Assembly: GCA_034509925.1 (NCBI GenBank)
Contig: CM067529.1
Coordinates: 10,627,501-10,691,500, forward strand
DNA from: Hirudinaria manillensis
Taxonomy: Eukaryota; Annelida; Clitellata; Hirudinida; Hirudinidae
Length of the DNA stretch: 64,000 nt
Direction: 5' to 3'
Both the position numbers and the translations under genes were made by a program. The notes under the pieces are model-generated. The model was given only the letters and a program-made list of their open reading frames with translations. It was not told the origin of the DNA and did no database searches. Shown here piece after piece: positions 38,701 through 64,000 of the stretch (position 1 is the first letter of the stretch; each line of letters begins with the position of its first letter).

Positions 38701-39949
38701 CATTAATATAAATAAGAAATAAAAGGGGACCCAGTATAGAACCTTGAGGAACACCATAATCAATAAGAACATCAGAAGAACACACACCATTAAACATAAC
38801 CCTTTGACTTCTGCCACACAAATAATTTTTAAACCAACACAAAACGACACCTCTGACACCATATTATTCATCTTATTTTTTTTTTATTTAAAATTATATG
38901 CAAATTAAATATATTTAGAATAGACTAATCACAATGCCCAGTTAAATTTTAAAAATTATACAATATCTTGTAAATTCAAAATAACCTATTTTATGAATCG
39001 AATTTATAAAAAATAAAAAAATAATTTTTATGAATTTCGACCAATTTGTGATCAATTGCGAGAATTAAATCTATTCTTTACAGAAATTCGGCATTAATTC
39101 AATAGTGAAATAAAACTTATTCATTTACCTGGATTATTGGATTGATAATCCTCGATGTAATTGCACAGTTCATATCTCATCGGATTATATCGTGAAATGT
39201 AAACGTGAAGCTGTTCCATGGTATGTCTAGCGACTAAACATATTGAAGCAACAAATAATATAAAAACGATAATAATAATAACAATAATAAATAAAATAAT
39301 AATAATAATATAAATTTATGACAATAGAACGAAATTGTATTAATCATTCAACTCCATTCATTGATGCACCCTTTTAAAACCTTTAATTAATTAGATTTCA
39401 TCGACCTAACTTGTCTCATTGGAACTGAAAGCAATGGCAACTTTGGTCACTTTAAATATCCCATCAAGTTTTCCCATCCACCAAATTTCATCTTCGTCAT
39501 TCAACCCTTTAAAAGATATCGCACAGGTTTCCAAATTATCATCCACTGCCAAACTTGAATAGGCATTCATATGCGTGTGGCTTTGTGACGTCGCATTATT
39601 TCTAGTGAAATCAACTAAAAGTAACAATATTAACCAGTTAATAAAAAACACTACAGAACCTTTAGGCTATCTTTTATAGGCTCGTTTCGTTGTGGTAACT
39701 CTTTAACTTAAACTTTCAATAATATTTTTTTTTAAATTTTTGTTACGATGTTTTTATAAGGATAATTCGGCATTAATTGTATTGTAATTTAAAAAAAAAA
39801 CTAGTATAAGATAACAAGATGGAAACCTTATGGGACCTCAAAGTCTAAAAATCCCTTTAATATTACAATTAATTAAGAGTTAACTTGCCTTTCAATGAGC
39901 ACGATGTTTCGATAATTATTAACATGAAATGTATTACATAAAACTTCAT
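32717..39949 (-). CDS. SPH-E, FTP-FTP-LDLa3-SRCR-pseudoprotease, 18 exons, 826 aa
   Basis: Exons (high to low): 39949-39889, 39614-39411, 39233-39129, 37439-37311, 37145-36948, 36778-36671, 36599-36444, 35969-35859, 35430-35320, 35257-35147, 35057-34940, 34868-34752, 34610-34546, 34306-34120, 33614-33340, 33277-33108, 33043-32893, 32820-32717. Every junction keeps frame. Signal peptide MKFYVIHFMLIIIETSCS. Same domain order as SPH-D. The S1 fold starts YIINGDLAEVGAWPWHA; catalytic positions ILTSASC (His to Ser), KNMALI (Asp to Asn), GDEGSP (Ser to Glu). Tail PQIIVGLFPVVVVLCNQH is hydrophobic. Intron 3 is enlarged to 1.7 kb by a LINE in the same orientation. Most 5' gene of the array in transcription order. 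Confidence 0.86.
36210..36440. repeat. Imperfect AAT/ATT-rich low-complexity tract
   Basis: A 230-bp stretch made almost only of A and T in ATT, AAT and TTA triplets with local inverted repeats, inside intron 7 of SPH-E. It is noncoding. Confidence 0.7.
37621..38890 (-). mobile_element. 5'-truncated non-LTR retrotransposon (LINE) in SPH-E intron 3
   Basis: Bounds: a poly(A) tail (plus-strand T run at 37621-37642) at the 3' end and loss of homology near 38870 at the 5' end. The sequence TTTTTTATTTAAA occurs just outside both ends (about 37601 and 38880), a candidate target-site duplication. The 3' UTR is only a few bases. Same orientation as the host gene, inside an intron, so it need not disrupt it. 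Confidence 0.8.
37649..38842 (-). CDS. Partial reverse transcriptase, C-terminal 397 aa of a LINE ORF2
   Basis: Shows the second half of a non-LTR reverse transcriptase: [20 protein letters not shown] (the PQG motif), YADDIVIY (the catalytic YADD), the [18 protein letters not shown] region and [13 protein letters not shown] (the LG motif), followed by a thumb and C-terminal region. The endonuclease and the first RT motifs are missing, so it is 5'-truncated and dead on its own. The motif set fits the jockey/I/CR1 group better than RTE or L1, but that placement is tentative. The frame is uninterrupted, suggesting a recent insertion. The real ORF began upstream; the first Met shown is internal. 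Confidence 0.85.
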   Translation of the reverse strand: [397 protein letters not shown]

Positions 39950-43774: not shown

Positions 43775-44099
43775 CCTTACAATCGTACCCCACATGTCTG
43801 TCGTAGAAAATAAATTGTTACAAAACTTTTAAGGGTAAAAACGCTGTGAAACTAAATTTAGTAACATGCAATTACGTAATAGTATGGAGTTTTCTGTGAC
43901 TCAGGACATCATCACGCTCGCAGAATTGCATTTTGTTTGCATATCAAATTTAATGAACTGATGTCATAATTTTTTGTTACAACATAACAAGCGGGAGTAA
44001 TGTACTCGACCAAATTATTTTGGAGGTAAGTATAGAAATTATTGAATCGACTTTGTTATAAAAATTGTTTGTGGCAATTATTTATACCATTATTATTAA

Positions 44100-44530
44100 T
44101 ATCATTTTACCATCACGTTGTTGTTGGCAACTGGATGTTTAAAGCTTATAAATGCAATGATAAACCACCCTTCTTTCAGTTGCATTTGTAAGGTTTTAAA
44201 ATATGGATGCAAAACCGTATCTTATATTCTTTCACTCTCGTATGATGTAAGATCCAAATGTTGTGTAGGCGAACACATTGATTGTTTAATGAGCACTATT
44301 GAAGGCATCGATAAGAATGCTATCTTGACAGCGGAGATAATACAATATCGGTTTGTTTAAAACGGCTGTTGGCAGCAATGGCTCGGCATTTCAGCCGAAA
44401 CAATGTTGATTGAAAATGATCTGTTTTTGATTACAGATGCGCACAAATATATTAAAGAGAAATGGCTTGTAAACTTGTTAAAAATATGTCCTGCTATCGA
44501 CTGGGAATCCAAACTCTTCGTTAACTAATT
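44100..44530 (+). pseudogene. Fossil C-terminal part of a P gene
   Basis: The frame at 44190-44360 matches P residues near 350-400 (YILSLSYDVRSKCC, EHIDCLMSTIEGIDK versus P1 EHIDCSLSAIEGINK), then hits a stop. Further words (the ICPA-like end at about 44485) match the P C-terminus after a frame change. The first three quarters of P are absent. With the exon fossil at 43.65 kb it preserves the order R2 then P, without R3. Confidence 0.8.
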
Positions 44531-45740
44531 CACGATGTTTGCGTGATTCAAACATTGAAGTCGAATGTTGAAAGAAATTTTGCATAATTACGTGTTTTAG
44601 ACAGCAATACATGAATCAAACATATATTTGATAAATAAATTCTATATCACTAAGTGATACATTGAACAAACATCCGCCACCTAGGGAATGTAGATTAAAT
44701 ATTTTTGTAAAATTACATAATGGAATGACGTGAGACCCGCATTTGTAATTTATAAAATCGCGGGCTACGTTTCGAGACTTCATAATTTAATCATAAATGA
44801 ATATATTATCGGCGTTTCAATAGGTAGAATTAATTTATCACCTAAATGTTTCTCTTTAATTAGTTAATTTGATTATAAAACTTTAAAACTTTAATTAAGA
44901 CTACAACTATATTTAAAATAATTTTCGTATTTACGGGCAGATTCTAAAAAAATGAATTTATTTATATAAAAATTAATTTATTTGGTTTTAAATCAAGGAG
45001 GAATTTTAGAAAATATTTATATATTTTTAATTTTGTTTAAATTATTCAGCAGAATTCATTTGAGGAACGCGTGGACAGTGAGACCAATCGAATTTAGTTC
45101 CTTTACCACGTGGGAATACAATGGCAGATAATATTAATTACGATTCCAACCAAATTGTTTACAATTAGAAAGTTACCGTTAAATCATTCAATTGATTGTT
45201 GTTATGATTAACGCATATCCCTGACGAATCTCAACACTTTGACTGATTAACGCGAAAGATGGCGCTTTTCACAGGAATTTCAAATGTATAAGTTAAAAAG
45301 TGCTCAAATACTTTTATAAATTTATACCTAAACAAATGAATGCTTACGATACTGTGAATCACCATTAATAATGACATTCTATGGTCACATTTATGGTCTA
45401 TGGTTCTTAGACTTACTAGATCTTTCTGAACGTGATAATCGGTTCTTCAGGCTTCAGGCATGTGTCTGAGACGGGCGGCCACTTGTTACGACTTTGCACG
45501 TGAACGATCCGATTATTTGGATCTCTAACTTCAAAATTTAAAGACTTATGGGTGAGTGATGATTAAGGAAATTGATGGAACATTCCATGGATTTTGATTC
45601 GTCTTATGGGCAATGTTGACCGGGAGTATAAGTCGGAATGAGAGTGAGTGTCGAGATTTTATGTGAGAATTGCGAATTGGAGTGAAGATTAGCAAATTTC
45701 AGCTCAGAACCACATAGGAACGGCAGGACAATTTAAAGAA
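44531..45740. other. Intergenic region before the tandem array
   Basis: 1.2 kb. The leftmost 200 bp resemble the 3' flank of P. The rest is unique, slightly GC-richer after 45400, without a gene I can support. Confidence 0.45.
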
Positions 45741-45996
45741 GCGCCACTACATCACGTGCAAGACAGTGGAGAAAGCGGTGGTCGCAGGTATGGTGTGATG
45801 CAAGCTTCGGCAACGAGATCTACTGAAAGGAGATGCGACAGCCATCCTGTTAAGAGAGCTTTGGACTGATCTGGTGGGTAACTTGAGAAAATAAAGCTGT
45901 TTTTATTTGATAAAATAAGGCCATTTCTACAAACCTTCGTAACTATGCCACTTTGCTCGGGCCCGACGGGTGGCGTAGTGGCGAGATATGACTGTA
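45741..45996 (+). mobile_element. MITE-like remnant at the start of tandem unit 1
   Basis: Shares about 250 bp with the right part of the 11263-11566 element, including the end GACGGGTGGCGTAGTGGCGA and the terminal GACTGTA. The left terminal repeat is missing. Similarity between units 1 and 3 begins exactly where this remnant begins. Confidence 0.65.
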
Positions 45997-46249
45997 ATTT
46001 GTATGAAGAAGTCAGAAAATATTTTAGAAAAATCGTATCGCGAATTGAGTAATTGGTTGTAAAATATAATAATTTTTTAATAAACAAATAAATAAATTGA
46101 TAAATTAATTAATTAATTAATAAATTAATTTAAAAAAAATCAGACCTTTTGAATTATTCAGAATCTTTCGTTCTACTCATTCGTAAAGGCGACAACAGCG
46201 ACACGAAATATAACTACAAAACATAACAGATTATAGCAGTTAAAAAAGA

Positions 46250-47581
46250 ATGATTCCCGAAAATTCTGAATTTGAATCCATGGTTTCAGTTTTGACGAAA
46301 GCAATGACGGTAAACGTTATCGCACTCCAAAGAATTACAAAATCCGATGACCCAGTGGAAGCATTGAGGCAGGACGTTGGAAAAAAGTCGTTGAAAGAGT
46401 GGTTGGAAATGGGTTATGCTCAGGCTCTCGGTCTCATAATGATGGAACTCGTAAATAGTTGTAGAAGGGATTTAATGGAAAATTATTTAATGCTAGTAGA
46501 CGCTATCATTCCACCCGCGCCGGATTTTATGGACAGCAATGTTCCTACGAACATTTTCAATAGTTCATCGACCAAAAACAAAAAAGAAATTGAAGAATTT
46601 ATATCCGTGATAACGATGTCTGTGGCAAAAAGTTTGTCTTTAATCTATCCATTCGGTAATATAAACAAATCCCTTCTTCTAAGACTCGCTTACCATAGTA
46701 GTAAGCTGAGCTTAAACAATTTGTGGTCTTGCTATTATGATACAATCGCAGATTTCCACTTGGGTCCAACTTGCCAAAATTTATCTCGCACTGCCTTGAT
46801 ATTGGTTGCGATATTACTCGAGAAAATGCCAATATCCTGGCTAAAAGTTAACTTTGACGGCAATATTGTTTTTGATATCAAAATGATATTTTTTCTGAAT
46901 GACGAAGGCAAGTGCCGTCATATTGATTATCTACGAAAGGTTTGTCATAACTTGAACTGTGACGATATTTTCGATTTACCGAATGCTTTGAAAACCACGC
47001 AGGATTTTGAGTTTAACGGACAATCTCTTAGAACGGATCTGAAAAGGGCATTAATGTTGATCAGCTCCGAACGATCTAAGGAATATTTTTTCAAACACTT
47101 CATTATCGATGGCCTCCTGCAGAAATTTCATTTGCTCTTGTGCAAACCTTCTGATGCCGTTGTTCGGTCATCCGCCAATAAGTCATTTCTCACCGTAATT
47201 CAAGACTTAGACGTTGACATTCAGGATCGCAGGGGGAAGATGATCGCATTCAGGAACCTTGTTGAACTGGTTGTCAAAACCTTATCTTATATTTTTTCAC
47301 TTGCGTGTGATGTAAGATACAAATGTTGTACAGTCGAACACATTGATTGTTCATTGAGCGCCATTGAAGGCATCAATAAGATTGCTGTCGTGACAGCGGA
47401 GCTACTAGAATCTCTCTTTGTTTTAAACGGCAGTTTCGACCAATATATCTACATTCCTGCTAAGAACAAGTTAATTGAGGAATATCTCTTTAAGATTAAG
47501 ATTGGAGACGAATATAAATACATGAATAGGGATTGGTTCGTAAGAATTATAAAAATATGTCCCTCTGTGTTCTATATATGA
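46250..47581 (+). CDS. P1, intronless protein of unknown family, 443 aa
   Basis: One uninterrupted ATG-to-stop frame; the start is supported by the paralogs, which begin at the same place after a conserved leader (GGCGACAACAGCGACACGAA upstream). I do not recognise the family. No signal peptide or convincing membrane span; the composition is Leu-, Lys- and Glu-rich and looks mostly alpha-helical, in the manner of helical-repeat or scaffold proteins, so a cytosolic location is likely. Landmarks: SDDPVEALRQDVG (31-43), IPPAPDFMDSNVPTNIF (86-102), ISWLKVNFDGNIVFDIKMIF (195-214), EHIDCSLSAIEG (368-379). Every other confident gene here has introns, so P may descend from a retrocopy. Against P2, differences fall in patches and are largely amino-acid-changing. 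Confidence 0.8.
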   Translation: MIPENSEFESMVSVLTKAMTVNVIALQRITKSDDPVEALRQDVGKKSLKEWLEMGYAQALGLIMMELVNSCRRDLMENYLMLVDAIIPPAPDFMDSNVPTNIFNSSSTKNKKEIEEFISVITMSVAKSLSLIYPFGNINKSLLLRLAYHSSKLSLNNLWSCYYDTIADFHLGPTCQNLSRTALILVAILLEKMPISWLKVNFDGNIVFDIKMIFFLNDEGKCRHIDYLRKVCHNLNCDDIFDLPNALKTTQDFEFNGQSLRTDLKRALMLISSERSKEYFFKHFIIDGLLQKFHLLLCKPSDAVVRSSANKSFLTVIQDLDVDIQDRRGKMIAFRNLVELVVKTLSYIFSLACDVRYKCCTVEHIDCSLSAIEGINKIAVVTAELLESLFVLNGSFDQYIYIPAKNKLIEEYLFKIKIGDEYKYMNRDWFVRIIKICPSVFYI

Positions 47582-48170
47582 ATTTCCTGCTGACTAATTC
47601 GGTCAAAAATGACAGGCATCATAAATTTGTTTTTGAATGATATTATTTAATTCACAATGGCTGGGGACATTTTATTTCCTTCTGATGTCCACCGGATCTT
47701 AATGAAATTTTGCATACTTATGTACATTTTTGTGACCAATCGTAAAATTGAATTTGTTAAAAAAATAAATAAATGCTAATAGAAATATTTAATACTTCTG
47801 ACACCTGGAAAATACAGATTAAATAATTAATAAATTTACACGGTGGAATAACAATTTACAAGATCTACGATCTATCATTGGCGGATACAAATTTTATATT
47901 GAAGCCAATGTCCTTTTTTTTTATATTTTGAGTAAAAATAATAAATTTTAATATATTCGTTAGAATGTTGTAAATAGTTTTCATTGTTTTAGTTCATCAT
48001 GAAATAAAAAAATTATAATTATTTTTTATTTTGTGCATTTTAAACTGATATTGTAAATCTGATATTATCATACAGGAAGTATTTAGAATAAAGCATTTAG
48101 TATTAAAAAAAATCGAAATAGTATGTTAATCGCTGTTACGTTTAACTGAGGTTTTGGCCGGTTGCGAAAT
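47582..48170. other. 3' flank of P1
   Basis: Contains AATAAATAAATG near 47765 as a candidate polyadenylation region and AT-rich sequence, nearly identical to 55977-56565 in unit 2. No further gene. Confidence 0.55.
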
Positions 48171-48173
48171 TTA

Positions 48174-48246
48174 AGGCGAAGTCGAACACCTGGATTCGAA
48201 CCAGACCCGACACACTGACAATTAGACGTCCTCATACTACGCCATT
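48174..48246 (-). ncRNA. tRNA-like SINE head with pol III boxes
   Basis: On the minus strand it has an A-box-like TGGCGTAGTATG and a perfect B box GGTTCGAATCC with a five-pair T stem. The ends can pair as GGCGTAG with CTTCGCC (six of seven), but seven extra bases lie between the T stem and the 3' arm, so it is not a normal tRNA. A T run follows about 70 bp downstream. Best read as the head of a tRNA-derived SINE or a tRNA pseudogene, copied with the tandem unit. Confidence 0.6.
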
Positions 48247-48533
48247 TGAAGAAGGTTACACGCTGGCTAAGAACGGGACTTGATAAATTTATGTGGACTG
48301 TGGGCGAGACCAAGACAAAGCGACACGCGAGCCGGTTCAATAAAAGATTATGTAAATATTGATCATGTGAGTAAGTTTTTTGTAGCATCGTTTCAGCTAT
48401 GTGATAGTTGTAGAAGGAAGTAGAGGCTATTTGAAACCGAAGGAGCCTATCTAATTCAAAATAAGATTTAGCCAAACTACTTCCTTAAAAATGAACAGCC
48501 TTACAATAGCATTCCACATTTGTAACACAACAA

Positions 48534-49987
48534 ATGGAAGTAATGTCTGCATTGAAGTTATTAGCTGGTAAGAATAGAAAGTTCCGCAACAAAATTATTA
48601 CATACTTTTTTGATATGGTTATCCTTGTCATTATTGTTAATGATTGTATGTTCAAAATTTACATTGAATTTGTTATAAGTAGGTATAATAACACCAGAAA
48701 TATTTTTATTTCAGAATATTTGGTAATTTATGGATTAATTTAGCAAAATGCCACTATTATTGTGATGATGATGTTGGAATATGTTTGTACACCAACAAAA
48801 CATTGGTTAGGAGTTGGAACGAAGCCCGTGAAAATTGTCGCTTAAACGGAAGTATTTTATTGGAAATTTATGACGAAAAATATAAAGAAGTCGTCATTAA
48901 TGCTATTCACAAGTTTCAGTTAGAAAAATATTATTTAATGTTTGGATTGGAATATGTCAATAACCAATTTCGATGGTCCTCAGGTAAGTATTTTAAATGA
49001 ATAATTTATTAATTATTTTTTCAACATTTGTTTTTCAATATTTTTATTTTCCTTGCTAATATAAATTTTAGGGAAAAGAGTGACATTAACCTTTACCAAA
49101 AAATATGAATTCAATGGAACTTGTTATGCATTCCTGGTGGTGAATGGATCCCAATTATCTATTTCTCCTTTGTGTGATAATTATCCTCCCAATCACGCCT
49201 TTGTGTGTTTACAAGGTTTTCAATTTTGCAAAACATCAATCGAGACGTCCTATCCTGACTCTTTAATGTTATAACTTTTCAGTCAACAAAAACTTTGTGA
49301 CAGAGATACCTGATGAAGTTTATACATCGCAAGAATCGTTTGAAGTTTCTCATTTCACCAGTTCTCAATTGACCAACAATATTGGTGAACAACAACCCCT
49401 CAAGCTGGCAATTGGAATTGGTGTCGTTGTCCCAATGATTGTCATCTCTCTCGTTGTGTTTGTTGTCTATGTACGAAAACGAAGGTGAATCTTTTTTTAT
49501 TTTATCTCTAACCAATTTTGTTGCATTTGTCTACATTTAGTTATATTTAGGATAGAAGATTGATAGGAAAATAGAATATGCTATTGTCGCTTAGTGATCC
49601 ACAATCATACTACACCAAAGCATTCTATATGAATTTGTGCTCTGCTGTTACTGAAGTGTTTTTTTTTTTTAATTTTAAAAATCTAGGTAATAATTTGAAC
49701 ACGATATAATTTATTGATCAACGTATTACACTTTTAAAGGTTTTCCATTGTTTTTTTGTTTTTTTTACAATTGTTTAAGGTCCAAGAGATCAGCATTCGT
49801 CTGTCATGTTACCTCAAAAAAAGCAGAAGAGAATTGCAAGTCGAATGAAAATTCCACTGATATGAAAGCTTCAGTAAATGTGAATGGCAGGACAATTGAC
49901 GTTCCAGATGAGGATCATTACGAGGGTCTTGTTGTATATGAAAATAACCATCACCATTACGACATCATGGGTTCTGAGAAATATTAA
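48534..49987 (+). CDS. R2a, C-type-lectin-like membrane receptor, 5 exons, 275 aa
   Basis: Exons: 48534-48567, 48744-48983, 49072-49215, 49283-49484, 49780-49987. Exon 2 holds the first half of a C-type-lectin-like fold (CHYYCDDDVGICLY, SWNEARENCRLNGSILLEIY, ending FRWSSG); exon 3 the second half (GTCYAFLVVNGSQL, FVCLQG). Exon 4 has a short stalk, the transmembrane segment (LAIGIGVVVPMIVISLVVFV) and RKRR. The tail has YEGL and, nine residues on, YDIM, a YxxM motif of the PI3K-binding kind. The Ca-binding EPN/QPD and WND motifs of sugar-binding lectins are not seen. The signal peptide is weak: an alternative exon 2 acceptor at 48714 hits a stop, so I used the acceptor at 48743. The 5' end may be wrong. 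Confidence 0.7.
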
Positions 49988-50606
49988 GTTACGCGTTTAC
50001 TTAAAGTAATACTTTAATATTTAGATTTTTGATTCTGATTTCATTATTCGGTGTGAAAGTGAAACTGAAGCAAATATGTATAAAATATAATTATGTATGA
50101 TATAAAGTATAATATTTGATATAATGTTATAAATAATGTATGAGACGAAATGTCTTGTAATATAAGCCATAATTTTATTAGTAATATTGTTGTTTTGTGC
50201 CTTGTGATTGTAGAAAAATAATGTTTATAAAAATTGAATTTTTCATCGGCTTGGATTGTATCTTACAAACTCTGAAATAAATATATTTTCCTGAAAACAT
50301 TTCAATTCAATATTCATTTTATAACTATTTAAGATTGAAATTATCTTAATAAAGGACTTCCAACCACTGGTCTCAATATGTATGCCTGTTCACCAAATCA
50401 CATTCAGAGTGGCTGATGCGAGATGTTATACGCTCGTTGATTGTCTGGTTTAGATATAATATATGATTAGTTGATTTTAATTTAGAAATAATTCATAACC
50501 CATTTGATTAATTCAATTGACCTCTGGTATGGTATTAAATGATAGTTCAATAATTACTTTCAATTTAAAATTTAATCACTTTAAAGTTCAAAATTCAATA
50601 TAAAAC
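49988..50606. other. R2a 3' flank and R3a promoter region
   Basis: AATAAA near 50276 is a plausible R2a polyadenylation signal. Otherwise AT-rich with no gene. The matching part of unit 2 is longer by about 0.8 kb. Confidence 0.5.
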
Positions 50607-51906
50607 ATGAAGACGCAAGGTCTAAAAGGTTTATTCAGCTTTTTCAGAATAGTTTTAAATCTCTTAGCAAATTTAATCATATTTGTTGGGTGTTTTATTT
50701 TTGACTGTGAATTAATTACATAGTTTCATTGTTATTTGTTGCGTTGTGGCTAAATGGAAGAAAATGTGACTTCTGTTGCGATGAAAAATCTGTGATCTGC
50801 CTGTTTACCAACTCTCTAGACACGGCAACAAGTTGGGAAGAAGCTCAAAGATATTGTTCTAGAAATGGAAGTATTTTGCTGGAAATTTACGATGAAAAAT
50901 ATAAAGATATTACATGCAAAGCTTTTATCGTATGTAATGGATCTCAGTTACGCATCGAACCATTTTGTGCTAACTTGAATGAAGGCCATCGATTCATGTG
51001 CTTAAAAGGTAATATCGATGTTTTTTATTGATTTTAAAATCAACTCATTTAACAATTCCTCATTTTAGACAAAATCCGTGAGACAACCAAAACTAAATGG
51101 AACCAAATCTCAACTACTGAAACGACAACAAACAAAAACAAATTTACAACCACTCAAATCATTAAAGACACACACACAACATCACTCTACAACGATGTCC
51201 ATCAATCAACTAAACCTCAACAACAGAATAACAACATTGCATTAGTACTCTGTACCGGCATTACACTCCCAGTAATTATTATCTCTCTCATCATTTTGAT
51301 TATTGTCCTTGTAAAACGAAGGTGGGTTGTTTGTTTAGTTTTTCGTATTCATTTTGAAGCCACATTTATAACCTGTGTGACCTCTATTATAATTAATTAA
51401 TTTTGTATAATTAGTTAATGTAGTTTAAATTCTGCCCAAGCACCATTATGCTTTGACATTCAGCGATCCAATTTGAGATGCCTACAAAACCATATCATAA
51501 CAAAGAATTTTTAAATGAAAATATAAAATTGATCAACGTTTACCATTATTTTGAAAATCATTACAAATAAATACTTCTACAAGCGCGTGGATGTAATCGA
51601 CAAACTATTAGAGAACTGTACAAGTAAATTAGGACGTTGATATATAATTTATATATTGCTTTTCTCTTGTTGAATCTTTATAATTTTATCAATCAAACAA
51701 ATTTTATATCATGTATTTTATTTTATTATAGGTCAAAGAAAGTAAACGACGATGTTAGTTCTCTGGAATATGTCAGCGATCTCCCATCAGTAACTCCTTG
51801 CAATAGGACATCATTATATTATGCTGATTTGGAATTAAAAGGAAATACTTCTGAATATAAAGAACAAAAGCTTTCTATGGGAAATCCTTTTTATGTACAA
51901 AAATAA
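50607..51906 (+). CDS. R3a, C-type-lectin-like receptor with ITIM and shortened lectin domain, 4 exons, 244 aa
   Basis: Exons: 50607-50628, 50724-51008, 51069-51321, 51732-51906; all in frame. Exon 1 MKTQGLK, then signal core SLLFVALWLNG. The lectin domain starts CDFCCDEKSVICLF and SWEEAQRYCSRNGSILLEIY but passes straight from EKYKDI to TCKAFIVCNGSQL: the middle, including the exon boundary that R2 has there, is deleted in frame. The stalk is Thr/Gln/Asn-rich, the membrane span is TLPVIIISLIILIIVLV followed by KRR, and the tail contains LYYADL, a consensus ITIM (L-x-Y-x-x-L). Probably an inhibitory receptor if expressed; the shortened fold may not be able to bind a ligand in the usual way. 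Confidence 0.72.
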
Positions 51907-54424
<2,518 letters not shown>

Positions 54425-54653
54425 ATTTATATGAAGAAGTCAGAAAATATCGTATCGCGAATTGAGTAATTGGTTGTAAAATATAATAATTTTTTAATAA
54501 ATAAATAAATTAATTAATTAATTAAAAAAATTAATTAAAAAATAAGTCAGACCTTATGAATTATTCAGAATCTTTTGTTCTACTCATTCGTAAAGGCGAC
54601 AACGGCGACACGAAATATAACTACAAAACATAACAGATTAAAGCAGTTAAAAA

Positions 54654-55976
54654 ATGCAATCATTCATTCCACCATATTCTGAAGTTGAATTCTTGCTTTC
54701 AGGTTTGTCGAAAGCAATGACGGAAAACGTTCTCGCACTCGAAAGAATTACACACTCCGATGACCCAGTGGAAGCATTGAGGCAGGACGTTGGAAACAAG
54801 TCGTTGAAAGAGTGGATGGAAATAGGTTATGCTCAGGCTCTCGGTCTCATAATGATGGAACTCGCAACTAATTCGTATAGTGGTTTAATCGATAGATATT
54901 TGATGCTAGTAGACGCTGTCATTCCACCTGCGCCGGATTTTATGGACAGCAATGTTCCTACGAACATTTTCAATAGTTCATCGACCAAAAACAAAAAAGA
55001 AATTGAAGAATTTATATCCGTTATCATTGTGCCTGTCGCTAAATTACATAGTAGGGATAAGATAAAGGAACCCCTTCTTCTAAGAATCGCCTACCACAGT
55101 AGTAAGCTGAGCTTAAACAATTTGTGGTCTTGTTTTTATCCTACAATCGCACATCGTTATTTGGGTCCAATTTTCCAAAATTTATCTCGCACTGCCTTGA
55201 TATTGGTTGCGATATTACTCGAGAAAATGCCAATATCCTGGCTAAAAGTTAACTTTGACGGCAATATTGTTTTTGATATCAAAATGATATTTTTTCTGAA
55301 TGACGAGTGCAAGTGCCGTCATATTGATTATCTGCGAAAGGTTTGTCATAACCGTGACGATATTTTCGATTTACCGAATGCTTTGAAAACCACGCAGGAT
55401 TTTGAGTTTAACGGACAATCTCTTAGAACGGATCTGAAAAGGGCATTAATGTTGATCAGCTCCGAACGATCTAAGGAATATTTTTTCAAACACTTCATTA
55501 TCGATGGCCTCCTGCAGAAATTTCATTTGCTCTTGTGCAAACCTTCTGATGCCGTTGTTCAGTCATCCGCCAATAAGTCATTTCTCACCGTAATTCTAGA
55601 CTTAGACGTTGACATTCAGGGTCGCAGGGGGGAGATGGTCGCATTCAGGAACCTTGTTGAACTGGTTGTCAAAATCTTTTCTTATATTCTTTCACTTGCG
55701 AGTAATGTAAGATACAGATGTTGTACAGACGAACACATTGATTGTTCATTGAGCGCCATTGAAGGCATCAATAAGATTGCTGTCGTGACAGCGGAGCTAC
55801 TAGAATCTCTCTTTGTTTTAAACGGCAGTTTCAACCAATATATCTACATTCCTGCTAAGAACAAGTTTATTGAGGAATATCTGTTTAAGATTAAGATTGG
55901 TGAGAAATATAAATCCCTAAGTGAGGAATGGTTCGTAAGCCTTAGAAAAATATGTCCCTCTGTGTTCAGATTATGA
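54654..55976 (+). CDS. P2, intronless protein of unknown family, 440 aa
   Basis: Full-length paralog of P1. The N-terminus differs in sequence and length (MQSFIPPYSEVEF), a three-residue indel occurs near residue 237 (CHNRDDIF versus CHNLNCDDIF), and the last ten residues differ. Long blocks are identical, for example NLSRTALILVAILLEKMPIS and QDFEFNGQSLRTDLKRALML. Sharp difference patches lie near residues 1-30, 70-83, 124-143 and 162-176. No domain family recognised; no signal or membrane segment. Confidence 0.8.
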   Translation: MQSFIPPYSEVEFLLSGLSKAMTENVLALERITHSDDPVEALRQDVGNKSLKEWMEIGYAQALGLIMMELATNSYSGLIDRYLMLVDAVIPPAPDFMDSNVPTNIFNSSSTKNKKEIEEFISVIIVPVAKLHSRDKIKEPLLLRIAYHSSKLSLNNLWSCFYPTIAHRYLGPIFQNLSRTALILVAILLEKMPISWLKVNFDGNIVFDIKMIFFLNDECKCRHIDYLRKVCHNRDDIFDLPNALKTTQDFEFNGQSLRTDLKRALMLISSERSKEYFFKHFIIDGLLQKFHLLLCKPSDAVVQSSANKSFLTVILDLDVDIQGRRGEMVAFRNLVELVVKIFSYILSLASNVRYRCCTDEHIDCSLSAIEGINKIAVVTAELLESLFVLNGSFNQYIYIPAKNKFIEEYLFKIKIGEKYKSLSEEWFVSLRKICPSVFRL

Positions 55977-56565
55977 ATTTTCTGCTGACTAAATAGGTCA
56001 AAAAAGACAGGCATCATAAATTTGTTTTTGAATGATATTATTTAATTCACAATGGCTGGGGATATTTTACTTCCTTCTGATGTCCACCGGATCTTAATGA
56101 AATTTTGCATACTTATGAACATTTTTGTGACTAATCGTAAAATTGAATTTGTTGAAAAAATAAATAAATGCTAATAGAAATATTTAATACTTCTGACACC
56201 TGGAAAATACAGATTAAATAATTAATAAATTTACACGGTGGAATAACAATTTACAAGATCTACGATTTATCGTTGGCTGATACACATTTTATCTTGATGC
56301 CAATGTCCTTTTTTTTTTATATTTTGAGTAAAAATAATAAATTTTAATATATTTTTTAGAATGTTGTAAATAGTTTTCATTGTTTTAGTTCATCATGAAA
56401 TAAAAAAATTATAATTATTTTTTATTTTGTGCATTTTAAACTGATATTTTAAATCTGATATTATCATACAGGAAGTATTTAGAATAAAGCATTTACTATT
56501 AAAAAAATCGAAATAGTATTTTAATCGCTGTTACGTTTAACTGAGGTTTTGGCCGGTTGCGAAAT
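55977..56565. other. 3' flank of P2
   Basis: Near-identical to the P1 flank, including the AATAAATAAATG stretch. No gene. Confidence 0.55.
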
Positions 56566-56568
56566 TTA

Positions 56569-56641
56569 AGGCGAAGTCGTACACCTGGATTCGAACCAGA
56601 CCCGACACACTGACAATTAGACGTCCTCATACTACGCCATT
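56569..56641 (-). ncRNA. tRNA-like SINE head, unit 2 copy
   Basis: Same A- and B-box-like elements as at 48174-48246 (B box at 56587-56597), copied with the tandem unit. A single base differs near the 3' arm. Not a functional tRNA by the same argument. Confidence 0.6.
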
Positions 56642-56916
56642 TGAAGAAGGTTACACGCTGGCTAAGAACGGGACTTGATAAATTTATGTGGACTGTTGGC
56701 GAGACCAAGACAAAGCGACACGCGAGCGAGTTCAATAAGATTATGTTAATATTGATCATGTGAATAAGTTTTTATAGCATAGATTCAGCTATGTGACACT
56801 TGTTAGAGGCTAATTTGAACAGAATGAGCCTATCTAATTCAAAATAAGATTTAGCCAAACTACTTCCTTAAAAATGAACAGCCTTACAATAGCATTCCAC
56901 ATTTGTGACACAACAA

Positions 56917-58375
56917 ATGGAAGTAATGTCTGCATTGAAGTTATTAGCTGGTAAGAATAGAAAGTTCCGCAACAAAATTATTACATACTTTTTTGATATG
57001 GTTATCCTTGTCATTATTGTTAATGATTGTATGTTCAAAATTTACATTGAATTTGTTATAAGTAGGTATAATAACACCAGAAATATTTTTATTTCAGAAT
57101 ATTTGGTAATTTATGGATTAATTTAGCAAAATGCCACTATTATTGTGATGATGATGTTGGAATATGTTTGTACACCAACAAAACATTGGTTAGGAGTTGG
57201 AACGAAGCCCGTGAAAATTGTCGCTTAAACGGAAGTATTTTATTGGAAATTTATGACGAAAAATATAAAGAAGTCGTCATTAATGCTATTCACAAGTTTC
57301 AGTTAGAAAAATATTATTTAATGTTTGGATTGGAATATGTCAATAACCAATTTCGATGGTCCTCAGGTAAGTATTTTAAATGAATAATTTATTAATTATT
57401 TTTTCAACATTTGTTTTTCAATATTTTTATTTTCCTTGCTAATATAAATTTTAGGGAAAAGAGTGACATTAACCTTTACCAAAAAATATGAATTCAATGG
57501 AACTTGTTATGCATTCCTGGTGGTGAATGGATCCCAATTATCTATTTCTCCTTTGTGTGATAATTATCCTCCCAATCACGCCTTTGTGTGTTTACAAGGT
57601 TTTCAATTTTGCAAAACACCAATCGAGACGTCCTATCCTGACTCTTTAATGTTATAACTTTTCAGTCAACAAAAACTTTGTGACAGAGATACCTGATGAA
57701 GTTTATACATCGCAAGAATCGTTTGAAGTTTCTCATTTCACCAGTTCTCAATTGACCAACAATATTGGTGAACAACAACCCCTCAAGCTGGCAATTGGAA
57801 TTGGTGTCGTTGTCCCAATGATTGTCATCTCTCTCGTTGTGTTTGTTGTCTATGTACGAAAACGAAGGTGAATCTTTTTTTATTTTATCTCTAACCAATT
57901 TTGTTGCATTTGTCTACATTTAGTTATATTTAGGATAGAAGATTGATAGGAAAATAGAATATGCTATTGTCGCTTAGTGATCCACAATCATACTACACCA
58001 AAGCATTCTATATGAATTTGTGCTCTGCTGTTACTGAAGTGTTTTTTTTTTTTTTAATTTTAAAAATCTAGGTAATAATTTGAACACGATATAATTTATT
58101 GATCAACGTATTACACTTTTAAAGGTTTTCCATTGTTTTTTTTTTGTTTTTTTTACAATTGTTTAAGGTCCAAGAGATCAGCATTCGTCTGTCATGTTAC
58201 CTCAAAAAAAGCAGAAGAGAATTGCAAGTCGAATGAAAATTCCACTGATATGAAAGCTTCAGTAAATGTGAATGGCAGGACAATTGACGTTCCAGATGAG
58301 GATCATTACGAGGGTCTTGTTGTATATGAAAATCACCATCACCATTACGACATCATGGGTTCTGAGAAATATTAA
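56917..58375 (+). CDS. R2b, C-type-lectin-like membrane receptor, 5 exons, 275 aa
   Basis: Exons: 56917-56950, 57127-57366, 57455-57598, 57666-57867, 58168-58375. Nearly identical to R2a: the only coding change I see is Asn to His in the tail (YENHHHHYDIM versus YENNHHHYDIM). Introns differ by a few bases in T runs. The same weak signal-peptide issue applies, so either both copies work with that start or both share a misread first exon. Lectin-like, transmembrane and YEGL/YDIM tail features are as in R2a. Confidence 0.7.
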
Positions 58376-59805
58376 GTTACGCGTTTACTTAAAGTAATAC
58401 TTTAATATTTAGATTTTTGATTCTGATTTCATTATTCGGTGTGAAAGTGAAACTGAAGCAAATATGCATAAAATATAATTATGTATGATATAAAGTATAA
58501 TATTTGATATAATGTTATAAATAATGTATGAGACGAAATGTCTTGTAATGTAAGCCATAATTTTATTAGTAATATTGTTGTTAGTGCCTTGTGATTGTAG
58601 AAAAATAATGTTAATAAAAATTGACTTTTTCATCGGCTTGGATTGTATCTTAGAAACTCTGAAATAAATATATTTTCCTGAAAACATTTCAATTTAATTT
58701 TTATTGTTTTATACCGTACGAAAATCACAACTGGAAACGAGCGTGCCTCATCGCCAGAGGTACACAAAACCAAAGATTCACATAATCTTACAACAATAAC
58801 AAATTTAAATTACTTCTATTTAATGAAAATTGATTCAGAAGCTAATAAAATAACAAATAAATTCAACCCTGTGGGATTCCTTGTATCAACCCTAACAAGT
58901 TATTTCTTTTCAAACATCATCTGGAACAGCTTCAGTTCATGTTTTCATTAAACTTTACCTCACATTAATTAATTTGAGAAGCCCCCCGGGTTGCAACAAT
59001 ATTCATAAAGGACATAAAAATGTATTATGCAATGATTATGTAATTGGATGTTTTAATACCACTATAAAATTCCTTCTCTTAAGATGATATGCCAATTTGG
59101 TAAGCGTTTAAAGACGATGTGATCAACTCTACTTTATTTGTGATGGCTATAATTCTACAAAAATAAAATTTAAATTTAATTTTGTTTAATTAGCTCGAAA
59201 AATATTAATTAAATATTACATTATATATTAAATTATAAACATTGTCGTTGTTGATATTCTATAGCTAATCATTTAATAGTTTGGGAAAATGTCTGTTTCA
59301 ATTTACACAGATCCAATTAGAGCGATGGTTCAAAGGTTACGGAGATGAACTGATGATCATCTAATTTAATATAAAGAACGTATTTTTTTCATTAACTTGC
59401 TCATTTATTGTAAGTAATTTTTCCAAATAAGTTTATTAAACATAATCGCAAATACATTAAATTTTAAATGTAAATAATCTGTCTAAACATTAGCAACTAT
59501 ATAAAGTAAAAACGTGACCGTAAGATGAAAACACAAAAAAACACCAAGTAGGATCTAAACTCTTGGGAATATCTCAACCACGTAACAAACGCATAACGAT
59601 TCCATTCAGATGGCTCAGAGAAATAAGAAATGAGCTACTTAAACGATTAAACACAGGATGTCCCAGGTTATGAACATGTTCGTTAATATCTTAAAAAATA
59701 AGATCTTTATCTTAAAGGTAGAACTCTAGAGAATTGTTGTGCAGTTCAAGAATTACCTTTAATTTCAACTTTAATCACTTTAAAGTTCAAAATTCAATAT
59801 AAAAC
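58376..59805. other. R2b 3' flank and unit-2-specific spacer
   Basis: The first 320 bp match unit 1; then about 1 kb (58700-59760) has no counterpart in unit 1, before homology resumes near 59760. I see no gene, terminal repeat or poly(A) that would name the insert. The CCCCCCGGG near 58985 is unusual for the local base composition. Confidence 0.45.
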
Positions 59806-60989
59806 ATGAAGACGCAAGGTCTAAAAGGTTTATTCAGCTTTTTCAGAATAGTTTTAAATCTCTTAGCAAATTTAATCATATTTGTGATTATCAGGTTAAT
59901 TAATGATTAATTTATGATGAAAATTTTAATTGTAGAAAGAATAGCTATTCAACTACCAATAAACGTTGGAATTTTTAATGAAACATGCAAAGCTTTTATC
60001 GTGTGGAATGGATCTCATTATCGCATCGAACCATTTTGTGCTAACTTGAATGAAGGCCATCGATTCATGTGCTTAAAAGGTAATATCGATATTTTTTATT
60101 GATTTTAAAATCAATTCATTTAACGATTCCTTATTTTAGACAAAATCCGTGAGACAACCAAAACTAAATCCAACCAAATCTCAACTACTGAAACAAACAA
60201 AAACAAATTTACAACCATTCAAATCATTAAAGACACACACACAACATCACTCTACAACGATGTCTATCAATCAGCTGAACCTCAACAACAGAACAACAAC
60301 ATTGCATTAGTCGTTGGTACCGGCATTACACTCCCAGTAATTATTATCTCTCTCATCATTTTGATTATTGTTCTTGTAAAGCGAAGGTGGGTTGTTTGTT
60401 TAGTTTTTCGTATTCATTTTGAAGCCACATTTATAACCTGTGTGACCTCTATTATAATTAATTAATTTTGTATAATTAGTTAATGTAGTTTAAATTCTGC
60501 CCAAGCACCACTATGCTTTGACATTCAGCGATCCAATTTGAGATGCCTACAAAACCATATCATAACAAAGAATTTTTTAATGAAAATATAAAATTGATCA
60601 ACGTTTACCATTATTTTGAAAATCATTACAAATAAATACTTCTACAAGCGCGTGGATGTAATCGACAAACTATTAGAGAACTGAACAAGTAAATTAGGAC
60701 GCTGATATATAATTTATATATTGTTTTTCTCTTGTTGAATCTTTATAATTTTATCAATCAAACAAATTTTATTTATTTTATTTTATTTTATTACAGGTCA
60801 AAGAAAGTAAACGACGATTGCAGTACTCTGGAATACGCCAGCGATCACCCATCAGTAACTCCTTGCAATAGGGCATCATTATATTATGCTGATTTGGAAT
60901 TAAAAGAAAATACTTCTGAATCTAAAGGACAAAAGCTTTCACGGGAAATCCTTTTTATGTACAAAAATAACAAATTGAATTTTTGGTAA
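59806..60989 (+). pseudogene. R3b, degraded R3 paralog lacking the signal and first lectin exon
   Basis: Pieces: 59806-59827 (exon 1, same as R3a), 59936-60079, 60140-60386, 60797-60989. The 59936 exon is 144 nt, the same length as R2 exon 3, and keeps the original exon start (RIAIQLPINVGIFNETCKAF). However, the exon coding the signal core and first half of the lectin domain is gone. The tail keeps LYYADL, but a one-base deletion changes the C-terminus (LSREILFMYKNN instead of LSMGNPFYVQK). The joined frame is open, so a short cytosolic or mis-targeted product is possible; I call it a probable pseudogene. Confidence 0.65.
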
Positions 60990-62513
60990 GACTGAACTGT
61001 CTGGTACACAAAAGAGTATTTAATATAACATTTACAATAAGCTGTTAAAATTCGTTGCTAAATTTTAATATAAATAAATGCAAGAATACGTGGTTTTTTT
61101 TTCACGCACACATTCTTTATTCAATGAAAAAAAAAGCACTTAATATAAAACAACAGTAGGCCAGAAGGGATTTACATCCCGCTGGGTGGCTAACCGTTTG
61201 CAACATAAATTATATAATAAATGTGATATATAGTACATAAATAATATATCAAGAATAAGTCGGATATTGGAAAAAGGATTAGTGGTGGATTCAGACAGCA
61301 CATTCAGACAACATTCAATTAAGCACTTCTGCCACCTGGGGACTAAGGGATAACTAGTTTATACGAGATTTTTATGAGCACATTGTATACACCTGCTGTC
61401 TATTTTAATTTCTTAAAATCAGTTTTCATTCAATGAAACTCTGATCGGGTTTCAATGTACACACTTTTCTTGTCAACTATGAGCAGCTATAGTTTTAGAA
61501 GCTTATTATTGGTGAAATAAACTCAAATTAATGAATAAACTGATAACAATTTCCTATTTTCAATGGTTAATTCATATTTAATAACTTAAAAATAAAGTGA
61601 ACAATATTATATTACCAATCTGCTATTCATACAAGTTTACTTTCAACTACTGCCAATGTACGTAAATCAAAGAATAAAAGTCATGTTTTATAAATAAGTA
61701 ATAAAATATTTTCGCCCGTGCTTCTATTTTTAGTCCTAACAAGTTTCTATGTTTTCGGGCATCTAAACGAAATTATTGCATTCAATTTGAAGCCATTTCG
61801 ACATAAAATCCTGAATTAAAATTTGCGATTGTATGACTAAAAGTAACGCGACCATAGATTTTATCTCTTTAAAATACCATGTGTCATTTTGTTAAGCTTC
61901 TTAACAATGAAAGCCGATGTGAACAACTGTGATCGTCGAAAATGACAAACAAAACTTAAAATTATTATTCGTTGCTGAGAATTTTGTTGAACTCGGAACA
62001 TTCTAAAACTCATCAGAAACTATATTGAGACAACTGTAAACAAGTAAACTGAAAATAAACGTCAAGTGTAATTGAATATTCGTCCATAAGTATGCTGACT
62101 CAAGCAAACCAACCAAACCCGCCTAATCCGTGAACCATTGCGAGAGTCCTTTTATAGGGACATGGAGTATTTGAATACGACGTGGTAACAGATATGTTGC
62201 AGTGAAAATAACGGAATTAATTAATAGAACACTATATTTTTATATTTAATATAATTAATAAATTTAATAATATTAAGTTTTGAATTAGTGACCGTTTTCT
62301 TTCTTCGCAGATCCTGATAGAGAGATTATTCAAAGTTTCGCAACGGCTAGGAAGATAAAGAATATTATATTTTCACATTAACTTCGTTACTAACTGAAAA
62401 TAATATTTCTAAAAATGTATTTAATACAATGTATACGATAAAAGCTTTGCATGTTCCAACAAAATTTCCAACGTTTGCAGGTAAAAAAGAACATGGCATG
62501 CTTTTCAAGTGTA
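60990..62513. other. Noncoding tail of unit 2
   Basis: Copy of 51907-53410 from unit 1, ending in the common words TTTCCAACGTTTGCAGGTA and AACATGGCATGCTTTTCAAG just before the next MITE remnant. No gene. Confidence 0.6.
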
Positions 62514-62770
62514 AATCGCCACGACATCACGTGCAAGACAGTGCAGGAAGCGGTTGTCGCAAGTATGGTGTGATGCAAGCTTCGGCAACGAGATCTGCTG
62601 AATGGAGATGCGACAGCCATCCTGTTAAGAGAGCTTTGGACTGATCTGGTGGGTAACTTGAGAAAATTAAGCTGTTTTTATTTGATAAAATAAGGCCATT
62701 TTTAAAAACCTTCGTAACTATGCCACTTTGCTCGGGCCGACGGGTGGCGTAGTGGCGAGACTTGACTGTA
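62514..62770 (+). mobile_element. MITE-like remnant at the start of unit 3
   Basis: Corresponds over its whole length to the 45741-45996 remnant, ending GAGACTTGACTGTA. It marks the beginning of the third tandem unit. Confidence 0.65.
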
Positions 62771-63031
62771 ATTTATATGAAGAAGTCAGAAAATATTTTA
62801 GAAAAATCGTATCGCGAATTGAGTAATTGGTTGTAAAACATAATAATTTTTTAATAAATAAATAAATAAATAGATTAATAAATAAATAAATTAATTAAAA
62901 AATAAATTAATTAAAAAATAAATCAGACCTTATGAATTATTCAGAATCTTTTGTTCTACTCATTCGTAAAGGCGACAACGGCGACACGAAATATAACTAC
63001 AAAACATAACAGATTATAGCAGTTAAAAAAA

Positions 63032-64000
63032 ATGATTCTCGAAAATTTTGAAATTGAATCCATGGTTTCAGGTTTGACGAAAGCAATGACGGTAAACGTT
63101 CTCGCACTCGAAAGAATTACAAACTCCGATGACCCAGTGGAAGCATTGAGGCAGGACGTTGGAAACAAGTCCTTGAAAGAGTGGTTGGAAATGGGTTATG
63201 CTCAGGCTCTCGGTCTCATAATGATGGAACTCGTAACTTGTTTGAGATGGGATTTAATCGAAAAATATTTGATGCTAGTAGACGCTATCATTCCACCCGC
63301 GCCGGATTTTATGGACATCAATGTTCCTAAGAACGTTTTCAATAGTTCATCGACCAAAGACAAAAAAGATATTGAAGAATTTATATCCGTTATCATGGGG
63401 CCTGTCGCTAAATTACATGGTAGATATGTGATAAACGAACCCCTTCTTCTAAGAATCGCCTACCATAGTAGTAAGCTGAGCTTAAACAATTTGTGGTCTT
63501 GCTTTTATCCTACAATCGCACATCGTTACTTGGGTCCAATTTTCCAAAATTTATCTCGCAATGCCTTGATAATGGTTGCGATATTATTGGAGAAAATGCC
63601 AATATCCTGGCTAAAAGTTAACTTTGACGGCAATATTGTTTTTGATATCAAAATGATATTTTTTCTGAATGACGAGTGCAAGTGCCGTCATATTGATTAT
63701 CTGCGAAAGGTTTGTCATAACCGTGACGATATTTTCGATTTACCGAATGCTTTGAAAACCACGCAGGATTTTGAGTTTAACGGACAATCTCTTAGAACGG
63801 ATCTGAAAAGAGCATTAATGTTGATCAGCTCCGAACGATCTAAGGAATATTTTTTCAAACACTTCATTATCGATGGCCTCCTGCAGAAGTTTCATTTGCT
63901 CTTGTGTAAACCTTCTGACGCCGTTGTTCAGTCATCCGCCAATAAGTCATTTCTCACCGTAATTCTAGACTTAGACGTTGACATTCAGGGTCGCAGGGGG
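63032..64000 (+). CDS. P3, 5' part of the third P paralog (cut by window edge)
   Basis: Open for 323 codons from ATG at 63032 to the window end, no stop. Starts MILENFEIESMVSGLTKAM. It mixes features of both siblings: P1-like near the start, P2-like at CFYPTIAHRYLGPIF and CHNRDDIF, and private changes at MELVTCLRWDLIEK and VAKLHGRYVINEP. That mosaic suggests exchange among copies. R2 and R3 of unit 3 presumably lie beyond the window. Confidence 0.8.
   Translation, partial: MILENFEIESMVSGLTKAMTVNVLALERITNSDDPVEALRQDVGNKSLKEWLEMGYAQALGLIMMELVTCLRWDLIEKYLMLVDAIIPPAPDFMDINVPKNVFNSSSTKDKKDIEEFISVIMGPVAKLHGRYVINEPLLLRIAYHSSKLSLNNLWSCFYPTIAHRYLGPIFQNLSRNALIMVAILLEKMPISWLKVNFDGNIVFDIKMIFFLNDECKCRHIDYLRKVCHNRDDIFDLPNALKTTQDFEFNGQSLRTDLKRALMLISSERSKEYFFKHFIIDGLLQKFHLLLCKPSDAVVQSSANKSFLTVILDLDVDIQGRRG

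Follow-up and report, generated by a model that had tools for sequence, protein, structure and literature searches.

The window analyzed here is a stretch of 64,000 nucleotides of the Hirudinaria manillensis genome (contig C4, 10627501-10691500; the whole assembly of 148.4 Mb and 23 contigs was searched), and it contains the intronless open frames P1, P2 and P3 (Table 1), which belong to a set of eight genes, P1-P8. Overall, P1-P8 are HECT-less paralogs in a large single-exon family of TRIP12-like HECT ubiquitin ligases. A sequence-only reading of the window had presented P1-P3 as intronless paralogs combining shared blocks with divergent patches, and both the frames and the blocks were confirmed: the three proteins are near-identical over residues about 178-219 and 238-325, and diverge at residues 1-30, 70-83, 124-143 and 162-176, the C-terminus being divergent as well for P1 and P2. 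P3, whose frame is cut by the window end, is completed beyond it as a 437-amino-acid frame in locus L011.

A six-frame search of the genome with P1 returned 77 matches. Close copies number eight genome-wide and lie in a single array (C4:10,673,750-10,736,129; P1 to P8 correspond to loci L004, L009, L011, L008, L005, L006, L007 and L010, respectively), all eight with open frames. Beyond these, a relative with 53% identity sits ~100 kb upstream of the array on the opposite strand, relatives with 44-47% identity are found on contig C3, and, apart from fragments considered below, the remaining matches (23-42% identity) are spread over many chromosomes.

Table 1 Features of the window, in window positions unless another locus is named.
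Feature	Position	Strand	Description
P1	46250..47581	+	443-amino-acid intronless open frame; corresponds to the N-terminal, probably armadillo-like half of a TRIP12-like protein, without HECT
P2	54654..55976	+	440-amino-acid paralog, intronless open frame; near-identical to P8 ~52 kb away
P3	63032..64000	+	Paralog, frame interrupted by the window end
First tandem unit	45939..54342	+	~8.4 kb, approximate; P1 plus non-coding sequence
Armadillo-repeat-like unit	47018..47152	+	About P1 residues 257-301 (mapped by eye); part of the profile matching armadillo proteins
Shared variable patch	46436..46480	+	P1 residues 63-77
Shared variable patch	46613..46672	+	P1 residues 122-141; in-frame 4-residue indel
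Shared variable patch	46715..46801	+	P1 residues 156-184
Shared variable patch	47249..47353	+	P1 residues 334-368
Shared variable patch	47471..47539	+	P1 residues 408-430, close to where P stops and longer relatives continue toward HECT
Decayed 3' fragment of a relative	44190..44543	+	Upstream of P1; contains two stops; 72.5% to the L012 protein
Trinucleotide repeat tract	53463-54392		~900 bases, reads poly-Met or poly-Ser; just upstream of P2
Trypsin-like serine protease frame	5610-6071	-	PF00089, E 1.5e-7; probably an exon
Possible galactose-binding (F5/8 type C-like) domain	36910-37422	-	Below the Pfam cut-off
Reverse transcriptase frame	37652-38842	-	PF00078, E 3e-14; probably a non-long-terminal-repeat retrotransposon
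M60 (enhancin-like) peptidase gene	L042 6445-7860	-	Adjoins the cysteine-less HECT copy L042 on C3

Searched alone, P1-P3 gave no significant match against Pfam or PDB sequences (best 0.26 and 0.47, respectively), and the family was recognized because its longer genomic relatives were searched as well. The statement that no known domain can be assigned thus stands for the P proteins by themselves and falls once these relatives are included. Many relatives of P1 sit within frames of 700-867 amino acids, and in each of the nine long frames scanned a HECT domain (PF00632), whole or partial, lies at the C-terminus, with E between 2e-12 and 7e-61. TRIP12 was the top solved-structure match for 4/4 proteins tried, leading the next molecule by ~103 bits (L037), 88 (L034), 87 (L053) and 45 (L028), although closeness to TRIP12/UFD4 was judged against solved structures only. 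From these sequence relationships, P1-P8 almost certainly derive from E3 ligases and are devoid of HECT. The genome holds at least 145 HECT matches, ~65 of which (counted by eye) lie in uninterrupted frames of ≥600 amino acids covering most of the HECT profile; some of those represent subfamilies missed by a P1 search, and last exons may be among them as well. Stop-free HECT frames of ~925-1016 amino acids that P1 leaves undetected occur on C3, C10, C13 and other contigs, and other HECT subfamilies also seem to have expanded in this genome.

The boundary at which P proteins stop was then placed relative to their longer relatives. A Pfam scan found no HECT domain in P1-P3, and with it the catalytic C-lobe cysteine is absent. 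In a pairwise alignment, the last aligned residues of P1 fall at residue 411 of L028, ~50 residues before its HECT domain starts at 461; members of the HECT-less cluster on C6 and C11 end somewhat earlier than P1 relative to HECT (by eye), and in HECT-less frames the alignment never extends more than 26 residues beyond the HECT start. A tblastn search with ten family proteins, eight of them holding HECT whole or in part, detected no HECT remnant 3' of P at E ≤ 0.01 in the window or in eight array and neighbor loci. A spliced HECT exon near P is unlikely, since among the C4 matches listed (based on scores for 129 of 171 candidates) the nearest HECT is ~450 kb away from the array.

We placed this architecture on a tree of N-terminal parts. 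Among the loci retrieved, P1 is matched by 57 of the 68 frames that reach ≥250 amino acids; once the three duplicates from the window were set aside along with a fragment, 53 frames were aligned, which represent 52 genes because L013_68 is the 3' part of the L014 gene, split by the locus end, and was counted with it. This sample comprises the best 30 of the 77 P1 matches plus hand-picked longer frames. A full HECT with the catalytic cysteine TC motif was found in 17 genes and a full HECT without the motif in 7, while 5 have half a HECT (C-lobe missing) and 23 have none. A 31-row group (support 98/97), to which P belongs, takes in every HECT-less row (23) and every half-HECT row (5) together with 3 rows whose full HECT is devoid of the motif, so that it includes no competent HECT; its neighbor L053 retains the TC motif. 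L042, L043, L045 and L046, in which the motif is absent, lie on the opposite side of the tree from the P clade, and the tree requires seven architecture changes. Because the HECT domain is homologous to that of TRIP12, we infer that catalysis was probably lost rather than gained in the P clade, on a tree rooted at its midpoint with no outgroup.

What P retains is an N-terminal module, helical and probably armadillo (ARM)-like, as judged from profile comparisons. A profile of the 52 N-terminal regions matched designed armadillo repeats with a best E of 9e-7, summed over repeats, and the TRIP12 ARM region with E 0.002, and a second profile, built from 20 of the 24 members with a full HECT (16 of the 20 carrying the motif), matched importin alpha (0.02) as well as designed ARM proteins (E 4e-8). 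An ARM fold is likely, though not proven, for this module. In TRIP12, a HEL-UBL region lies between ARM and HECT (PMC12440805); in the leech family, the gap between the ARM-like part and HECT seems, by eye, too short for it.

The P copies recombine with one another. Of the 29 bins of 200 bases between 47700 and 53400, 22 share ≥96% identity with the following tandem unit (counted by eye) and the other seven drop to as low as 50%, while bins within the gene are 86-98% identical between the P1 and P2 units. P3 had been called a mosaic, and its nucleotide differences do switch nearest partner along the alignment: P1 is the closer one at alignment codons 1-90 and P2 through most of codons 121-240, and in parts of 331-450 P3 is distant from both. 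The pairwise homoplasy index, from 131 informative sites of the P array, was 0.167 against a permuted mean of 0.235, with 0/2000 permutations as low, and the 5' and 3' flanks group P genes differently. Counted from the ATG (P genes end near +1320), the flank match runs from -1500 to +1963 for P6/P7, not continuing to the locus end, and for P1/P2 it starts at -311 and reaches the locus end (+2828); P2 and P8 are 99% identical from -395 to +2005, preceded by a simple repeat. The index and the conflicting flank pairings together bear out the earlier proposal of gene conversion or other recombination. A trinucleotide tract similar to that upstream of P2 was seen upstream of P8 when the two were compared.

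Next, we evaluated whether the variable positions of P recur elsewhere in the family. N-terminal amino acid diversity along the P array correlates with that of C6/C11 (r 0.53), C10 (r 0.60, seven rows) and C12 (r 0.39), with 0/410 circular shifts as high in each case, and with that of L045/L046 (r 0.34, 5/410 shifts). The patch positions are thus variable again in four of the five further clusters compared, catalytic and not, and are therefore largely a property of the family; among ten pairs of other clusters, only four had fewer than 10 shifts as high. Shared patches, defined as positions that rank in the top third for variability when three other clusters are pooled, overlap most of the patches singled out by the sequence-only reading.

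Whether these patches evolve under positive selection was examined from synonymous and nonsynonymous changes. In the patches of the sequence-only reading (C-terminal patch taken as 415-443), 102 changes are nonsynonymous and 19 synonymous, so that "largely amino-acid-changing" is accurate for raw counts; site numbers alone predict ~3.8:1, and the normalized ratio is just 1.42, in patches moreover chosen for amino acid difference. We rejected these patches as proof of positive selection for that reason. With patches taken from other clusters (top third), the normalized ratio of nonsynonymous to synonymous change (N/S) in P was 1.36 in hot vs 0.67 in cold positions (p 0.02), and at stricter cuts 1.05 vs 0.91 (p 0.50) and 1.14 vs 0.90 (p 0.60), i.e., the contrast depends on the threshold. 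The eight P copies show 46 synonymous and 178 nonsynonymous changes, for a whole-gene N/S of 1.07 (p 0.37), 1.29 (p 0.06) and 1.53 (p 0.005), all one-sided, at a transition/transversion rate ratio (kappa) of 1, 2 and 4, respectively; two-state sites (81 transitions, 108 transversions) put kappa near 1.5.

Outside the array, the six-gene HECT-less C6/C11 cluster displays 156 nonsynonymous and 17 synonymous changes (normalized N/S 2.5-3.0 at kappa 1-2), and the N-terminal part of L042/L043 has an N/S of 2.76 (p 0.004), the other clusters singly being without a shown excess. Across six HECT-bearing clusters, nonsynonymous relative to synonymous change was higher in the N-terminal part than in HECT (Mantel-Haenszel odds ratio 1.61, p 0.0018, using all eight C10 rows), with Fisher p of 0.03 to 0.43 in single clusters and the opposite direction in the half-HECT pair L021/L029; the pairs L019/L020 and L028/L032 were left out for too few changes. 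An amino acid excess, as the diversifying selection proposed for P would give, is shown in C6/C11 and hinted at family-wide, but is not significant in the P array itself (1.07-1.29 at kappa 1-2).

Taken together, we infer P to be an intracellular non-catalytic binder. Our overall reading, which we would accept as readily as doubt, is that P proteins bind targets or ubiquitin and compete with, or redirect, their catalytic paralogs. More tentatively, they may act as decoys or adaptors in a conflict. HECT would have been lost with the N-terminal ARM-like module retained, and what this module binds would be a fast-changing target, ubiquitin chains or both. As a decoy or dominant negative, P could in that case keep the target away from catalytic paralogs, or alternatively, as an adaptor, deliver it to them. 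The variable patches would be shuffled by recombination among tandem copies, which would fit our guess as to the driver, a conflict in which the opponents are parasites, symbionts or selfish elements. The TRIP12 ARM is half of a pincer and binds two ubiquitins, the acceptor and, in a K48 chain, the distal one (PMC12440805), and TRIP12 is reported to control TGF-beta signaling independently of its ligase activity, recruiting SMURF2 to SMAD4 (PMC10589240).

Several observations weigh against parts of this reading. The ARM matches are summed from weak repeats, each insignificant alone in the three alignments shown, and TRIP12 was not among the matches of the full-HECT-member profile (20/24). An AlphaFold model of P1, from a three-sequence alignment, is mostly helical with a mean pLDDT (predicted local distance difference test) of 47.5, and Foldseek with this model, the structure search that had been proposed as a check, found no match at E ≤ 0.001; many armadillo proteins and designed repeats are among the sub-threshold matches, a hint only for so poor a model. 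Nonsynonymous changes counted on it (46.5 across 119 codons in helices and 36.7 across 53 in loops) were left unused because of model quality. Long branches meet in the 52-row tree, so that some placements are unsure. The patch profile is not common to all clusters, the P array and L042/L043 being uncorrelated (r -0.03, 233/410 shifts as high). Several P1-related copies carry stops, including five fragments with 50-51% identity inside and beside the array. Finally, positive selection in the P array was established neither by whole-gene N/S nor by the hot/cold test, the C6/C11 excess (p 8e-5 at kappa 1) was calculated without a recombination correction, and relaxed constraint plus recombination could explain the P patches.

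The most probable alternative, although we consider it rather unlikely, is another: P genes may encode functional HECT-less regulators under ordinary constraint, with uneven conversion leaving older, loop-like stretches divergent and no positive selection on the P patches. The patches of the sequence-only reading have more synonymous change per site than the conserved blocks (0.258 vs 0.142), also a point against our own reading, and the high identity of most downstream non-coding bins in the P1 and P2 units, the whole-gene N/S near 1 in P and the fragile hot/cold contrast all fit uneven conversion. Ordinary constraint, however, accords poorly with the N/S of C6/C11 and with the N-terminal excess over HECT across six clusters.

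P copies could instead be decaying by-products, i.e., truncated HECT genes that are little expressed and drifting to pseudogenes. The missing catalytic part, an N/S near 1 in most array pairs and the decayed fragments in and beside the array would be expected from such drift, but all eight array frames are open, with 0 stops against 9.0 expected if neutral (P 1e-4), a deficit that follows partly from comparing open frames. Moreover, HECT-less lineages sit deep in the 52-row tree, and four older HECT-less pairs have a dN/dS (nonsynonymous to synonymous rate ratio) of 0.34-0.64. We consequently regard decay as improbable, and hold with some assurance that P copies are kept as functional proteins.

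Two further proposals have very little probability. The sequence-only reading took P for exposed self/non-self recognition proteins of the allorecognition type, and patchy hypervariability and mosaics are what such proteins would show; we found this unsupported, given the ancestry from a TRIP12-like intracellular enzyme and the lack of a secretion or membrane sign (top 19-residue hydropathy 1.67, first 25 residues unremarkable), a result from hydropathy only and no signal-peptide or membrane predictor. Equally remote is a selfish cassette, mobile or toxin-antidote-like, carrying the P gene around: homology extends at least about 290 bases 5' and 600 bases 3' of the gene in 28/28 array pairs and is lost soon beyond in many of them, and single-exon copies occur on many chromosomes, but no inverted repeats of ≥100 bases were found in 44000-64000 of the window, many of the close relatives lie together as local copies on a single chromosome, and viral contigs searched with one peptide pattern held no relative. 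Viral origin was likewise rejected, the N-terminal profile and that peptide pattern having yielded 35 candidates and no relative.

Other features of the window and its surroundings are listed in Table 1. The frames beside L043 resemble those at L042 by their ends. Elsewhere in the genome, a short hirudin-family match scored above the family cut-off (E 5.8e-6) and has an internal stop, with such a match in 0/14 control genomes.

Genomes and transcriptomes of H. manillensis have been published (PMC10087013, PMC10671345). We found no report of this leech family in the literature searched, a coverage that leaves out most subscription papers, and no paper there with both whole words "Hirudinaria" and "HECT". 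Both "HECT" and "ubiquitin" occur 0 times in the main text of the GigaScience leech paper (PMC10087013) and 0 times in PMC11897028, and "ubiquitin" occurs 0 times in the H. manillensis HiFi assembly paper (PMC10671345).

Among known systems, TRIP12 and yeast UFD4 are the closest HECT ligases for the four leech relatives tried, with a probably ARM-like module before HECT in the same order; they differ in that the leech family is single-exon, ~700-870 amino acids with HECT, and present in dozens of copies, with P lacking HECT. In the tables of Marin (2010), HECT gene totals are 9-28, with one TRIP12 per column except for C. elegans, which has none (PMC2837046), and the ligase activity of TRIP12 is reported as essential in mouse embryos (PMC3196520). 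Thus a normally single gene has dozens of single-exon HECT counterparts in the leech, and the enzyme-free clades, with an intact, patch-variable module, may offer natural material on the role of the ARM module itself. E3 relatives without ligase activity are also reported as TRIM RING pseudoligases (PMC11992055), with the domain, a RING, still present there and HECT gone in P. The leech family raises the question of whether HECT ligases can join an evolutionary arms race, as F-box and TRIM proteins do. In nematodes and plants, F-box and MATH-BTB families, adapters of cullin ligases, have expanded, and their recognition part evolves fastest. Both they and the leech family are ubiquitin-system families expanded in one lineage, the latter consisting of HECT ligases, some members of which are without the enzyme. 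In its widest and unlikely form, our proposal would see an intracellular recognition repertoire built by the leech from one ancient TRIP12-type ligase, comprising dozens of catalytic ARM-HECT proteins and repeatedly derived enzyme-free ARM copies, P among them. Recombination and selection would diversify patches held in common on the ARM surface, and the copies without the enzyme would serve the catalytic ones as decoys or adaptors against fast-evolving opponents. If true, this repertoire would be the HECT-based counterpart of the nematode F-box and MATH-BTB arsenals.

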